From Polaribacter pectinis (GTDB lineage: Bacteria; Bacteroidota; Bacteroidia; Flavobacteriales; Flavobacteriaceae), in the NCBI RefSeq assembly GCF_014352875.1, contig NZ_CP060695.1, positions 2,511,501 through 2,575,500 on the forward strand: 64,000 bases of DNA, written 5' to 3'. Of the stretch, positions 9,067 to 23,792 are shown in pieces; the first letter of the stretch is position 1, and each line of letters begins with the position of its first letter. The position numbers and the translations under genes were made by a program. Under the pieces are notes generated by a model, which saw only the letters and a program-made list of their open reading frames with translations, was not told where the DNA came from and did no database searches.

Positions 9067-10548
9067 ATGAGGAGAATTTTTATATTTATTTTATTTAGTT
9101 GCTTAATAGCAACCAAATCATTTGGTCAATTTACTACAGACGAAATTACTTACGGAAACAGAATCGATTTAGAAAATTCTAACAGCTGGGCTGTAGGTGG
9201 TGGGTTTAGCAATTTTATTATGCATGGTGATTTGCGTTCTATAGGAACAGGAGATGACACCAATTACCTAAACTTTGGTGGTTTCTTATATGTAGACAAA
9301 ATGTTTAACCCTTTATTAGGTTTAGAATTAAAAGCTACATATAGTCAAATATCTGGTGGTGCACAGTACTTTAACAATTCTAGTCTTTACTACAATATAC
9401 AATATGCTGAAAGCGTAACCGATTTAAATAATACAAATTTTAAAGGTAGAGCTTATGGTGCTGAATTAAACTTGATTTTCAGTTTTACAAACTTATACCA
9501 AACAACAGCAAGTAAATGGCATGCTGCTGGTTATTTTGGTGTTGGTTATCACCAATACAATTCAGCTTTATATGAATACAAAAATGGAGATAATATAAAA
9601 ATACCTGATGCAGATTTTGGTAAAAACCCTGCTAGGAACAGTCAAAATGAGGCAAGTTCTATTTATTTATCTGCTCAATTAGGTATAAAAAGAAGAGTTA
9701 ATAAACGTGTCGATGTTGAGTTTAGAACAGGAATGTATTTTAACTATGAAGATCATTTAGATGCTGCTATTTCTAGAAAACAAGATTGGGAAACATTTTT
9801 TGTAACTAGTATAGGTGCAACTGTTAAACTTGGTAAGAAAAAAATATTTACTATTTGGGGAGATGAAAATAAAGGTGGTGGAAATGCTTTTAAAATTATT
9901 GACACAGATAAAGATGGTGTAATGGATCAATTAGATATTGAACCTAATACACCTGCAGGTGTAATGGTATATGGTAATGGTAAAGCTGTAGATTCTGACA
10001 AAGATGGTTTACCAGACTATAAAGATAAATGTCCTCTTAAATACGGACCTGTTTCTAATGAAGGATGTCCATTAAATGTAGATTCTGATGGAGATGGAAT
10101 TATGGATGGAGAAGACTTATGTCCTAACACACCAGGAACTGTAGAAAATAGAGGTTGTCCTAAACAAGAAGCTGTACAACCAAGTAACATTAACCAACAA
10201 ATTGGCTTGTTAGCTGCAAGTATCTATTTTGATACAAATAGCGACAGAATTAAAAGTATTTCTTTTGCAACAATTGATAAAATTATAACATTAATGAAGC
10301 AAGTACCAGATGTTAAGTTTGTTATTGAAGGACATACAGATGATAGAAATAGCGATAGATATAACTTATACTTATCTCAAAAGAGAGCTGCATCTGTTAG
10401 AAAATATATGATTCAACAAGGTATTGCCAATGAGAGATTAGACGCTAAAGGTTTTGGTGAATCTAGACCAAAATTCTCAAACGACAATGCTGGTGGTAGA
10501 CAGTTAAATAGAAGGGTAGAAATTAAACCTTCTGGCTCTTTAGATTAA
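9067..10548 (+). CDS. OmpA-family outer membrane protein with TSP3-type calcium repeats
   Basis: A 493-residue protein. A signal peptide ends around FGQ (residues about 1-20). An N-terminal beta-barrel region follows (about 25-270). Next come calcium-binding thrombospondin type 3-like repeats (about 275-360) with DTDKDGVMDQLD, DSDKDGLPDYKDKCP and DSDGDGIMDGEDLCP. The C-terminal OmpA domain (about 375-490) shows IYFDTNSDRI, IEGHTDDRNS and LNRRVEI, which bind peptidoglycan. It probably ties the outer membrane to the cell wall. It is a likely abundant protein: it has a strong -7 box and an exceptionally strong terminator. It is convergent with gldC. Confidence 0.93.
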   Translation: MRRIFIFILFSCLIATKSFGQFTTDEITYGNRIDLENSNSWAVGGGFSNFIMHGDLRSIGTGDDTNYLNFGGFLYVDKMFNPLLGLELKATYSQISGGAQYFNNSSLYYNIQYAESVTDLNNTNFKGRAYGAELNLIFSFTNLYQTTASKWHAAGYFGVGYHQYNSALYEYKNGDNIKIPDADFGKNPARNSQNEASSIYLSAQLGIKRRVNKRVDVEFRTGMYFNYEDHLDAAISRKQDWETFFVTSIGATVKLGKKKIFTIWGDENKGGGNAFKIIDTDKDGVMDQLDIEPNTPAGVMVYGNGKAVDSDKDGLPDYKDKCPLKYGPVSNEGCPLNVDSDGDGIMDGEDLCPNTPGTVENRGCPKQEAVQPSNINQQIGLLAASIYFDTNSDRIKSISFATIDKIITLMKQVPDVKFVIEGHTDDRNSDRYNLYLSQKRAASVRKYMIQQGIANERLDAKGFGESRPKFSNDNAGGRQLNRRVEIKPSGSLD

Positions 10549-20150: not shown

Positions 20151-21965
20151 TTATTGTTTGCTATTCTGCAACTCTGTAGCTTTTCTTTCTAACTCTGCTT
20201 GAAATTCTTCCATCACAGGTTTTACAGTACTATCTGGAATGTCTGCCACTTTAATATACATTAATCCATCTACTGCATTGTTAAATTTTGGATCTACATT
20301 AAAAGCTACTAAACGTGCATTTTGCTTGACATATTTCTTAATTAAAACAGGAATTCTTAATGCTCCTGGTTCAATTTCATCAATAATTTTATCGAACTTT
20401 TGCATGTCTGCTTTTGTAGCGTCAAAAACAAAATCTTTATCTCCGTCTTTTAATTTTACTTTGTATTCTTTCTTCGGATAAATGTATTGTGCAATGTATG
20501 GATCGTAATAGTGAGATTTCATAAACTCAATCATTAACGATTTAGAGAAATCTGAAAACTGATTACTTATAGAAACTCCACCCATTAAATATTTATATTC
20601 AGGGTAACGTAAAGTCACGTGTACAATTCCTTTCCATAACAAGAATAACGGCATTGGTTTTTGCTGATATTCACCAATGATAAAAGCACGTCCCATTTCT
20701 ATGGTATTAGACATCATTTGGTGCAATTCAGGCTCAATTCTAAACAATGTTTGAATATAAAAACCGTTAATTCCGTACTTTTTATAAATCTCTTTTCCAA
20801 GTCCCATTCTGTATGCTCCAGCCAAACAATTTGCTTCTCTGTCCCACAATAATAAATGGTGATAATATTTATCGAACTTATCTAAATCTATCTCTTTATT
20901 AGTTCCTTCTCCAACTTCTCTAAACGTAATTTCACGTAATCGACCAATTTCGTGTAATAAATTAGGAATGTCTTTTGCGCTTGCAAAAAAGACTTCATAA
21001 TTTTTACTTTCTAATAAACGAACCTCTTTTTCTCTTAAAGCATTTATTTCCTTAACAAATAAGCTAGTGTTTCTTTGTGAGGTAATTTTTTTGGCTGGTT
21101 TCTTCGGAATTTTTATGTTCTGAGTAGAGATTAATTTGTGTGCTTTCTCAAAAGGATTTGCCAACATATAGGTTTTCTTCCTAATGAATTCATAAAAAGC
21201 AGGAATCTCTTTAAACTCATTTTGGTCTGCAACAGAAATTGGTTTCCCTATTCTTACTTTTATAACTCTGCCTCCTTGAGAAATAACTTCCGAAGGTAAT
21301 TTTGCTGTTCTTAAAGTATCTGAAATTTTAGATAAGAAATAAAATAAACGGCTATTTTTAGCGTGAAAATAAATAGGAATTACAGGAACATTTGCTTTTT
21401 TAATCAAACGAACTGCACCTTCTTCCCAAGGTTTATCTACTTTTAATTTTCCGTCTTTATATGTTGAAACTTCTCCTGCAGGGAAAATTCCCAATGGTTT
21501 TCCTTCTTTTAAGTGTGATAATGCACTTTTAATTCCTGCAACACTCGATTTTGCATCCTTTCTGGTTTCAAAAGGATTTACTGGCATTACATAAGGTTTT
21601 AAAGGCTCTACTCTATGCAATAAAAAGTTAGCAATTATTTTAAAATCTGTTCTTTTTTCAATTAACAATTTTAATAATAAAACTCCATCAATTCCTCCCA
21701 AAGGGTGATTAGAAATCGTTATAAAAGCTCCATCTTTTGGAATTCTTTTCAAATCTTCCTCTGGAATTTCAAACTTAATTTTACAATCGTCTAAAACACC
21801 ATTTAAGAAATCTAAATCTGATTTGTTTTTGTTCTTATTGTATATTTTATTGATGGCAGAAATACGAAGTATTCTTAATAATATCCACCCAATAAAAGTT
21901 CCCAAAAATCCAAGTTTCTGTAAACCAACTACTTGCGAGATTTCTTTAGAAGTAACTAATGCCAT
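20151..21965 (-). CDS. Bifunctional acyltransferase, OlsF-like ornithine lipid synthase
   Basis: A 604-residue protein with two acyltransferase halves. Residues about 20-275 are a PlsC-type membrane acyltransferase, with block I as SNHPLGGIDG (His87, Asp93; spacing one residue longer than the usual HX4D) and a later FPAGEVSTYK. Residues about 310-600 are a GNAT-fold hemolysin/OlsB-like acyl-ACP N-acyltransferase with REITFREVGEGTNKEIDLDK, CLAGAYRMGLG and IEMGRAFI. OlsF proteins of Flavobacterium and Serratia have two such halves and make ornithine lipids. The OlsF assignment is inference; lysophospholipid acyltransferase with an OlsB domain is the safe call. Confidence 0.75.
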   Translation of the reverse strand: MALVTSKEISQVVGLQKLGFLGTFIGWILLRILRISAINKIYNKNKNKSDLDFLNGVLDDCKIKFEIPEEDLKRIPKDGAFITISNHPLGGIDGVLLLKLLIEKRTDFKIIANFLLHRVEPLKPYVMPVNPFETRKDAKSSVAGIKSALSHLKEGKPLGIFPAGEVSTYKDGKLKVDKPWEEGAVRLIKKANVPVIPIYFHAKNSRLFYFLSKISDTLRTAKLPSEVISQGGRVIKVRIGKPISVADQNEFKEIPAFYEFIRKKTYMLANPFEKAHKLISTQNIKIPKKPAKKITSQRNTSLFVKEINALREKEVRLLESKNYEVFFASAKDIPNLLHEIGRLREITFREVGEGTNKEIDLDKFDKYYHHLLLWDREANCLAGAYRMGLGKEIYKKYGINGFYIQTLFRIEPELHQMMSNTIEMGRAFIIGEYQQKPMPLFLLWKGIVHVTLRYPEYKYLMGGVSISNQFSDFSKSLMIEFMKSHYYDPYIAQYIYPKKEYKVKLKDGDKDFVFDATKADMQKFDKIIDEIEPGALRIPVLIKKYVKQNARLVAFNVDPKFNNAVDGLMYIKVADIPDSTVKPVMEEFQAELERKATELQNSKQ

Positions 21966-22046: not shown

Positions 22047-22643
22047 TTATTCATTAAACAGTATTGCTATATCTCTTTTTAATAATTTTATCTCTACTTC
22101 GTCTAATGAATCGTAAATTCCTCTAATTCTCATTTCTTTGTCTAATAAAACAACAGAACTTGTATGATAAAAATAACTATCATCATCCCCATCATTAGAA
22201 ATATGAGAAAGATAAAGCTTTGCTATTTTTTTTAAATCGGATTTATTTCCTCTTAAAAACAACCAATTTGTAGCATTTTCTGCAACAATCCTATGATGTT
22301 CTTTTAACACAGAAAAGGTATCTCTTTCTGGATCTATTGTAAAAGAAAGCAAAGGAATGTTTTCATTTGCCAAAACAACATCTTTTAAATTACTCTCCAT
22401 AACTGGGCAAATTGCAGTACAAGAAGCAAAGAAAAAATTTACAAGATGAATTTTACCCTTCAAACTATAAATAGGAAATTCTTCATTTAACTGACTCTTA
22501 AAAGACATTTTTTTAACTTCGGAAACATTTTCAGTTTCTACAAATGCTTTGCTAATTATAGGAAGTTTAATGTCACTTGAATCACAAGAAGAAAAAATTA
22601 AAATAATTAATATGTTTATAAAAAACGTATTTTTAAAAGACAT
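22047..22643 (-). CDS. Sco1/SenC-family copper chaperone lipoprotein
   Basis: A 198-residue lipoprotein (signal ends FSSC, Cys20) with a thioredoxin-like Sco domain. The copper-binding residues are present: Cys75 and Cys79 in CTAICP, and His160 in YFYHTSSVVLLD. Sco proteins deliver or redox-prepare copper, usually for the CuA site of cytochrome oxidase. Here the start codon directly follows the stop codon of a copper-monooxygenase-like gene with no gap. That suggests it serves that enzyme. No cytochrome oxidase gene is in the window. Confidence 0.88.
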   Translation of the reverse strand: MSFKNTFFINILIILIFSSCDSSDIKLPIISKAFVETENVSEVKKMSFKSQLNEEFPIYSLKGKIHLVNFFFASCTAICPVMESNLKDVVLANENIPLLSFTIDPERDTFSVLKEHHRIVAENATNWLFLRGNKSDLKKIAKLYLSHISNDGDDDSYFYHTSSVVLLDKEMRIRGIYDSLDEVEIKLLKRDIAILFNE

Positions 22644-23792
22644 CTAAACTTTATTTAATTTTGAATCTAAAGCTTTATCATAAAAATAAATAAACATACT
22701 TGCCATCATATCTGCTTCTTCTTTAGAAGTATTATTTACTTTCTGAATTAAAACATATTTATGATTTGGATACATTTTTATACCTTCTGTAGATGAAAAA
22801 CGAGTCATATCTTCAATTCCTTTTTTCCCTTTAGTATTTGTGATAATAGATTTAAAAACGGTAGTATTTGTAGTTTCGTCTTTCAACTCTAAAGAAGTTG
22901 CATAAGGATGTGCGTGTGCGTTAATAAAATGTACGGTTTCTATTTTTTGGAGATTCAACTTGCTTGTCATATCATTAATATAGGTGTTTTCTCCTGGAGG
23001 AATTTTCCAAAAAGCAGTAAATTTATCTCCATCTATATTTTCTGCTTCAAACCTATTATCTGAACTTGGCGCAGCACATTCTACAAAAGGTGCTCCTACT
23101 TCTAATTGTTTAGATGTAGTATAATTTTCTTCAGAATCGTCTGTGTAAGGTAAAGACAAAACCAAGTATTTCATGTATAAAGGTTTCAATTCTTTATGTT
23201 CATTCTTGGAATAATGTAATTTAAAATCGAAATTCACATTAAAATTAGCGTCTTTTTTATGCAAATTTAAAGCTTGAGAACTGATAAACATTTTCTCATT
23301 GGAGTAAATAGGATATGCAAATCCTTCAGGAAATTCTAGTAATAAAGTTCCATCTGTTAAGGTGATTAATCTAGAATCTTGCAAGTTTATTCTCTCTTCG
23401 AAACCCAATCTAGCAAAATGCTCTTCGTTACTATGAAATAAATTCATATGACATATAAAATCATTAGAATTAAATTTGCTGTTTGCTGTTCCTTTAAATT
23501 TTGTTACCCAATATAACTGGTCTTCTTTTTCATTCAATTTAAACTTCTCATTGGTGTGAGGACCTTGCATAGAAGTGTAAATATTGTCTATAAATAACGT
23601 TGGAGATTCGAATGTAGTAATATATTCACCTTCTTTTTCTTTGGTTGAAATTGTCCAATCTGCAGACAAAATACCCGTTTTATGTAACACAAAATTTTTA
23701 ACTTGATTTTGTTTTACTTTAGAAAATGACATATAATAAAGAGAAATTCCAAGAAAAAAGACTCCTAAAAATATCAGCGTTTTTTTAAGCAT
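22644..23792 (-). CDS. Divergent PHM/DBH-type copper monooxygenase-like protein
   Basis: A 382-residue protein with one N-terminal membrane anchor (about 4-22) and a periplasmic body. I do not know a name for it, but it reads like peptidylglycine and dopamine beta monooxygenases. Residues 114-119 (CHMNLF) fit the CuA motif HHMLLF, with Cys114 for the first His. His178 fits the third CuA ligand. HAH at 293-295 fits the CuB HxH. Met363 in DMMASMFIYF, after a KVNNTSKEE stretch, fits the CuB Met in family DEMCNLYIMY. The next gene, sco1, abuts it without a gap. The order of the ligands is convincing, but the catalytic activity is inference. Confidence 0.6.
   Translation of the reverse strand: MLKKTLIFLGVFFLGISLYYMSFSKVKQNQVKNFVLHKTGILSADWTISTKEKEGEYITTFESPTLFIDNIYTSMQGPHTNEKFKLNEKEDQLYWVTKFKGTANSKFNSNDFICHMNLFHSNEEHFARLGFEERINLQDSRLITLTDGTLLLEFPEGFAYPIYSNEKMFISSQALNLHKKDANFNVNFDFKLHYSKNEHKELKPLYMKYLVLSLPYTDDSEENYTTSKQLEVGAPFVECAAPSSDNRFEAENIDGDKFTAFWKIPPGENTYINDMTSKLNLQKIETVHFINAHAHPYATSLELKDETTNTTVFKSIITNTKGKKGIEDMTRFSSTEGIKMYPNHKYVLIQKVNNTSKEEADMMASMFIYFYDKALDSKLNKV

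Follow-up and report, generated by a model that had tools for sequence, protein, structure and literature searches.

Two copper sites, CuH and CuM, have been described in the monooxygenases of the PHM/DBH type. In PHM, CuH is held by H107, H108 and H172, and M314 is a residue of CuM (PMC6123673). Replacement by alanine of any one of the three CuH histidines is enough to inactivate the rat enzyme, and the part of that source consulted here presents the two coppers as 11 Å apart, a separation of which it is unknown whether it is a mechanistic requirement (PMC6123673). A second system of interest is the maturation of CuA. The copper-binding cysteines of bacterial CuA, on the periplasmic side, need reduction before copper insertion, and TlpA in bacteria and SCO2 in mitochondria are described as CuA cysteine reductases, in the sections of the review considered here (PMC8773535).

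The gene and its surroundings

The locus examined here belongs to Polaribacter pectinis and lies in a window of 64,000 nucleotides (contig NZ_CP060695.1, positions 2,511,501 to 2,575,500), whose numbering is used below. A previous sequence-only reading had described an anchored protein of 382 residues carrying the whole PHM ligand set in order, followed with zero intervening bases by sco1. The open reading frame exists, the residues were correctly placed (CHMNLF at 114-119, His178, HAH at 293-295 and Met363), and the stop TAG directly precedes the ATG of a second frame that matches PF02630. The features are as follows.

22644-23792, minus strand: PHM-like gene, a 382-aa ORF of an unnamed family
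23727..23780, minus strand: N-terminal hydrophobic segment, residues about 5-22, read by eye from the sequence
23442..23453, minus strand: C114-H115-M116-N117, proposed counterpart of PHM CuH His107-His108
23274..23276, minus strand: Gln173, aligned with PHM CuH His172
23076..23078, minus strand: Cys239, invariant second cysteine (254/254 rows)
22908..22916, minus strand: His293-Ala-His295, putative counterpart of the PHM CuM HxH, from conservation and profile alignment
22704..22706, minus strand: Met363, putative counterpart of PHM CuM Met314 (254/254 rows), pairing with the methionine of DEM
22641..22646, minus strand: abutting stop TAG (22646-22644) and start ATG (22643-22641), zero gap
22047-22643, minus strand: Sco gene, a 198-aa ORF matching PF02630 (E 5e-20, above cut-off)

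The PHM-like gene is present in a single copy in the P. pectinis genome, and residues about 5-22 of its product are probably a membrane anchor. No Pfam or NCBIfam model matches the 382-aa protein above cut-off, and a search of PDB sequences gave no credible match. The PDB hits that ranked first, to viral nucleoproteins (E 0.35 over 30 residues), were judged to be noise, and a match to MucBP_2 (E 0.011) was dismissed, being below cut-off.

A patchily distributed family

A first search returned 42 rows, including the window protein or a near-identical one. A profile built from 38 members gave 294 family matches and another, from four distant members, at least 241 at E<=0.01, the best 120 being listed in each case; the three sets overlap. 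Among the matches listed, the named rows are mostly Flavobacteriaceae, and two rows from the search with the four distant members are named Acidobacteria or Acidobacteriota. The proteins listed are called 'hypothetical' or 'uncharacterized', if anything, and carry no precomputed Pfam domain. One locus of typical Flavobacteriaceae organization comes from a metagenome-assembled genome titled Bifidobacterium breve (L095), a record name that looks wrong.

Across genomes the distribution is patchy. With P. pectinis itself counted, the gene occurs in 17 of 199 genomes of the taxonomic family and in 4 of 146 of the genus. Scanning of 345 genomes of the phylum gave three strong matches (E below 1e-150), one at E 7e-4 with internal stops, and seven between 0.04 and 1. 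In GTDB species genomes 129 stretches encode the family, and the best 80 of these were analysed. No relative was found in scans of IMG/VR, nor in a plasmid collection searched with the family member P0154.

The family is covered by no Pfam or NCBIfam model, and a literature search restricted to open-licence papers found no description of it. The earlier suggestion of something 'new for this group' agrees with these searches for models and papers, but the family is spread over many genomes. As part of the explanation that we tentatively favour, with somewhat less than an even chance for it as a whole, the protein would belong to a new, unnamed branch of the PHM/DBH superfamily and would be periplasmic and anchored in the membrane.

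The CuM half

Conservation was assessed on an alignment of 254 sequences, namely 18 near the window protein (itself included), 116 mid sequences of other Flavobacteriaceae type, and 120 distant ones. These rows were drawn from the best 120 of the 294 and the best 120 of the 241 matches, one of them, P0001, being identical or nearly identical to the window protein; 3 of 257 sequences had been dropped because they fell outside 300-460 aa. H115, C239, H293, H295 and M363 occur in all 254 rows, C114 and N117 in 253 each, H288 in 250 and Q173 in 248. In a smaller set of 38 aligned sequences, window included, C114, H115, H293, H295 and M363 are invariant as well. Thus, the residues singled out previously are kept (at least 253 of 254 rows each), with the exception of the variable His178, and Cys239 had been overlooked.

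The Pfam models PF01082 and PF03712, with which the sequence-only reading had proposed to verify the kinship, match neither the window protein (E<=10) nor any of 38 members (E<=1). A bridge was provided by bacterial proteins that do match PF03712, found in 23 of 247 genomes of the same phylum at E<=0.001, 21 of them over the cut-off. PF01082 exceeded its cut-off in one of 296 genomes and added nothing to the comparison. The bacterial PHM set was assembled from 23 of 25 PF03712 loci, two loci without a matching frame being omitted. In an alignment of 15 of these 23 proteins (A3), HH, H, HxH and EM are invariant (15/15). A3 retrieves DBH (4zel, E 7e-17) and PHM (1opm, E 1e-10) among PDB sequences, its ligand residues corresponding, in the animal sequences, to the blocks HH, VHY, HxH and DEM/EEM. 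We take the HxH motif to be the CuM ligands of PHM together with the methionine.

The occurrence in Bacteroidota-type genomes (L098-L122) of PF03712 proteins with full PHM ligands deserves mention in its own right, since one paper, in the portion consulted, describes PHM as widespread in eukaryotes. These bacterial proteins have an N-terminal cytochrome c-like part.

Compared with the profile of the 23 bacterial PHM proteins, the 254-row family profile gives a score of 42.8 (P 1.2e-4, HHalign probability 54%), in an alignment that pairs the family HxH with the PHM HxH and M363 with the methionine ligand. With this mixed PHM set, 200 column shuffles reach at most 27.3, so that none attains 42.8, and 18 real decoy families taken from neighbouring genes reach at most 21.9. 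The type-2 PHM subset scores 40.2, equalled by none of 200 shuffles, and the type-1 subset alone scores 27.6, equalled by one of 200 and not significant. Taken by itself, the distant clade (120 rows) again pairs HxH with HxH and Met with Met, and places Gln on the third CuH histidine, with either PHM set, mixed or type-2 (P 2e-4 and 1e-3). In the mid clade alone, HxH pairs with HxH of both sets and Met with Met of one. The near clade alone (18 rows) pairs HxH with neither set and Met363 with one. Profile alignments made globally over the PHM core were set aside as uninformative or wrong; when forced on the mixed set, they paired the C-terminal half of the family with the N-terminal half of PHM.

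Could this resemblance be due to chance, the protein being an unrelated beta-rich periplasmic protein in which HxH and Met happen to be arranged as in PHM? Such a coincidence would fit with the want of any credible single-sequence, Pfam or PDB-sequence match, with an HHalign probability that is at best the value given above and with the non-significant type-1 subset. It is nevertheless considered improbable, because neither the shuffles of the mixed and type-2 sets (0/200) nor the decoys (0/18) reach the observed score, and because the mid and distant clades agree on the HxH register when each is aligned separately. The weakness of the N-terminal profile matches counts against the favoured explanation. 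Kinship with PNGase F, a glycosidase without copper that shares clan and fold with PHM according to the relevant part of PMC8812541, appears highly improbable. The best profile scores of the family with PNGase F (PF09113) sets are 15.0 and 17.7, at background level; this comparison has little power, since the clan-mates PHM and PNGase F themselves score at background (12.6-18.2). The invariance of metal-type residues in the family also speaks against a copper-free glycosidase.

Since H293, H295 and M363 are invariant and are aligned by profile to the PHM HxH and Met with no shuffle in 200 doing as well, the CuM part of the sequence-only reading holds, and with it the distant relation to PHM/DBH seen through the bacterial PHM set. 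At the level of sequence comparison, these three residues of the C-terminal half are thus shown to be in the PHM register as the predicted CuM ligand set.

The CuH half

The situation is different for CuH. The family segment FPxGFGxP...SNExL...TQxLN runs without gap along the PHM strand that ends at the third CuH histidine, and Gln173 then falls on this histidine. In whole-family alignments this pairing arises in second matches (P 0.016 and 0.08); when the N-terminal half is compared alone, P becomes 0.0008 and 0.009. It is recovered in five of six subclade comparisons, the near clade giving it with one of two PHM sets and placing Gln173 elsewhere in a second match. With the type-1 subset, the match to the N-terminal half ends before the third histidine. 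A shift of two residues would bring Leu175 to this position, so that neither register offers a histidine.

His178, proposed earlier as a ligand, is mostly replaced by Asn in the family, and it is Gln173 that aligns with the third CuH histidine. Among the 18 near rows, column 178 has Asn nine times, Tyr six times and His three times; the 116 mid rows have Asn throughout, and of the 120 distant rows 108 have Asn and 4 have His. A family-wide role of His178 as third CuH ligand was rejected on this lack of conservation. The adjacent column 177 fared no better. It is His in 116/116 mid rows, but Leu in 18/18 near and 107/120 distant rows (the other 13 having His), and His177 was rejected as well. 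Columns 188 and 261 each hold His in 235 of the 236 mid and distant rows and an aromatic residue in all 18 near rows; the clade of the window protein is thus without a histidine pair kept elsewhere in the family.

The invariance of C114-H115, their order along the chain, and coupled columns lead us to infer that they are the counterparts of PHM H107-H108. In a direct coupling analysis, the column pairs 118-173 and 119-171 rank within the 60 strongest, which would set the CH strand antiparallel beside that of Gln173; the effective number of sequences being 136, these couplings carry modest weight. Where low-scoring alignments span the CH motif, CH does not fall on the PHM HH. As proposed in the sequence-only reading, where the site is called CuA, its first histidine is apparently replaced by Cys114 (253/254 rows). 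The invariant Cys239 sits in an extra stretch between the two halves.

Sequence comparison thus shows the classical three-histidine CuH site to be absent from the family as aligned. The claim of a whole PHM ligand set in order is right for the CuM HxH and Met, and wrong for CuH, where two of three histidines are apparently replaced. Because the three-histidine CuH site is lacking, the protein is PHM-like by its CuM half and stands outside PHM/DBH proper. A rebuilt site may mean loss of PHM chemistry, given that a single His-to-Ala change at CuH inactivates rat PHM.

The main rival to a rebuilt copper site, which we regard as unlikely without being negligible, is a relative of PHM with one copper. 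CuM would work alone, CuH would have given way to a structural C114-C239 disulfide, Sco would act as thiol-disulfide reductase or as supplier of CuM, and H2O2 or an external electron donor would be used. The apparent loss of two of three CuH histidines and the retention of the two cysteines (253 and 254 of 254 rows) in an apparently exported protein suit this scheme, as does the statement, in the part of the source consulted, that H2O2 can bypass O2 and extra reductant in PHM (PMC6123673). A plain disulfide would, however, not need H115 (254/254) and N117 (253/254), nor a Sco protein that retains all three copper ligands in each of 34 linked rows.

Linkage to Sco and other neighbours

The genome of P. 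pectinis has five PF02630 matches in all, one of which is the Sco gene next to the PHM-like gene. Translational coupling of the two may be inferred from their spacing. Elsewhere, 80 loci with flanks were considered, of which 78 were usable, two being without anchor ORF. Sco is the next same-strand gene in 27 of the 78. All 27 belong to the 38 loci with titles other than Flavobacterium (in one of these the sequence stops short of a next gene), and none to the 40 titled Flavobacterium. In 24 of the 27 linked loci (among L018-L097), the two frames share 1 to 14 bases, the starts being mechanically chosen.

In a tree, the linked Sco proteins (41 sequences, 34 distinct) lie on one side of a branch (95/99) that separates them from 50 other Sco sequences. 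The latter, from 42 genomes, comprise 30 loci and 20 hand-picked rows and are thus a sample of Sco genes; one of them (L204) has a long branch and its placement is unsure. C75, C79 and H160, the copper ligands of Sco, are kept in all 34 linked rows. Sco also accompanies the PHM-like gene in different chromosomal settings. The dedicated metallochaperone imagined in the sequence-only reading corresponds in this respect to a real linkage with a distinct Sco clade, which supports a functional link between the two proteins. In one genome (L170, about 9330-9524; G565:C1:2273329-2273523), a 65-residue stretch upstream of Sco is 60% identical to the C-terminal end of the PHM-like protein, which suggests a past tandem duplication.

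Linkage to Sco, together with the remodelled CuH, would also fit a non-catalytic protein on the PHM fold, binding copper or transferring electrons, for example a copper carrier partnered by Sco. No equivalent of the PHM substrate arginine, which presumably lies before HxH, was seen in the family, in line with such a function. This possibility is judged rather improbable, between the one-copper enzyme and mere chance, since the CuM set is kept in 254/254 rows, Flavobacterium rows included, although Flavobacterium-titled loci are without linked Sco.

Other genes vary around the family gene. In what we take, from reading the sequences, to be its common setting, an aconitase gene lies upstream and MoxR/SurA-type genes downstream. 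The chromosomal setting in the window differs from this. One further relative in the genus shares the setting of the window, with Sco and then the family gene, and two genus relatives show a third one, running from the family gene through acyltransferase_3 to Sco. One BLAST cluster is represented no more than three genes away from the family gene in 75 of the 78 loci (L018-L097). One member of this cluster, as well as its counterpart in L168, is an acyltransferase_3 (PF01757). The acyltransferase_3-type gene is divergent from and adjoins the family gene in 63 loci, and in L168 and L169 it separates the family gene from Sco. In the window no acyltransferase_3 gene adjoins, the neighbour at 20151-21965 being of another kind. 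These neighbourhoods also suggest, more weakly than for Sco, that acyltransferase_3 and the PHM-like protein are functionally linked. In 12 of the 78 loci (L019, L020, L022, L025, L027, L028, L029, L042, L046, L053, L061 and L062), 11 of which also carry a linked Sco, a MauE-like cluster (PF07291, one member checked) lies close to the family gene.

A possible mechanism

Considering these data, the explanation that we prefer, though with a little less than even confidence, is that of a copper oxygenase of the PHM superfamily in which CuM is kept and CuH is rebuilt as a Cys/His site, possibly with Gln and Cys, served by Sco. Slightly more tentatively, the same may be proposed for the widespread family as a whole, with a cysteine copper site made of Cys114, His115, Gln173 and Cys239 that would be loaded by Sco in many members. 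In such a model, CuM (His293, His295 and Met363) would bind copper and activate O2 or H2O2. At the rebuilt CuH position, a copper held by Cys114 and His115, and possibly Gln173 and Cys239, would pass the second electron. By analogy with the Sco-type systems that serve CuA, the linked Sco would deliver copper to the cysteine site, keep the cysteines reduced, or both. As to the substrate, the acyltransferase_3 neighbour in many relatives might faintly point to a lipid or glycan of the envelope, in preference to a peptide.

If this were true, a family that keeps CuM and differs at CuH would offer a natural test of the role of the second copper. For Sco proteins it would mean a client other than cytochrome oxidase, and many proteins now annotated as hypothetical or uncharacterized, the named ones mostly from Flavobacteriaceae, could be given a likely role.

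Comparison with known systems

With PHM/DBH, the family shares the CuM HxH and Met, whose register is seen by way of the bacterial PHM set, with an FPxG strand before and an NNT block after, in the same order. It differs by having Cys and Gln as the counterparts of His107 (a position deduced indirectly) and His172, by the additional invariant Cys239, and by the absence of a Pfam match. Furthermore, the family is bacterial, membrane-anchored as far as can be predicted, and often linked to Sco.

The bacterial Cu2_monoox_C (PF03712) proteins are found in the same phylum and have the same CuM block and FPxG strand. Unlike the PHM-like family, they keep the CuH HH...H (15/15) and match PF03712. The distance from the third CuH position to HxH is also different, about 120 residues in the family against 67-71 in these proteins.

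Finally, the linked gene resembles the Sco/SenC proteins in being a Sco with CxxxC and His, but falls in a clade separate from the 50 further Sco sequences of the sample. The client site described for Sco, in the part of the review consulted, is a copper bound by cysteines (PMC8773535), as would be the case here. The difference is that the client would be a PHM-like protein instead of a CuA domain.
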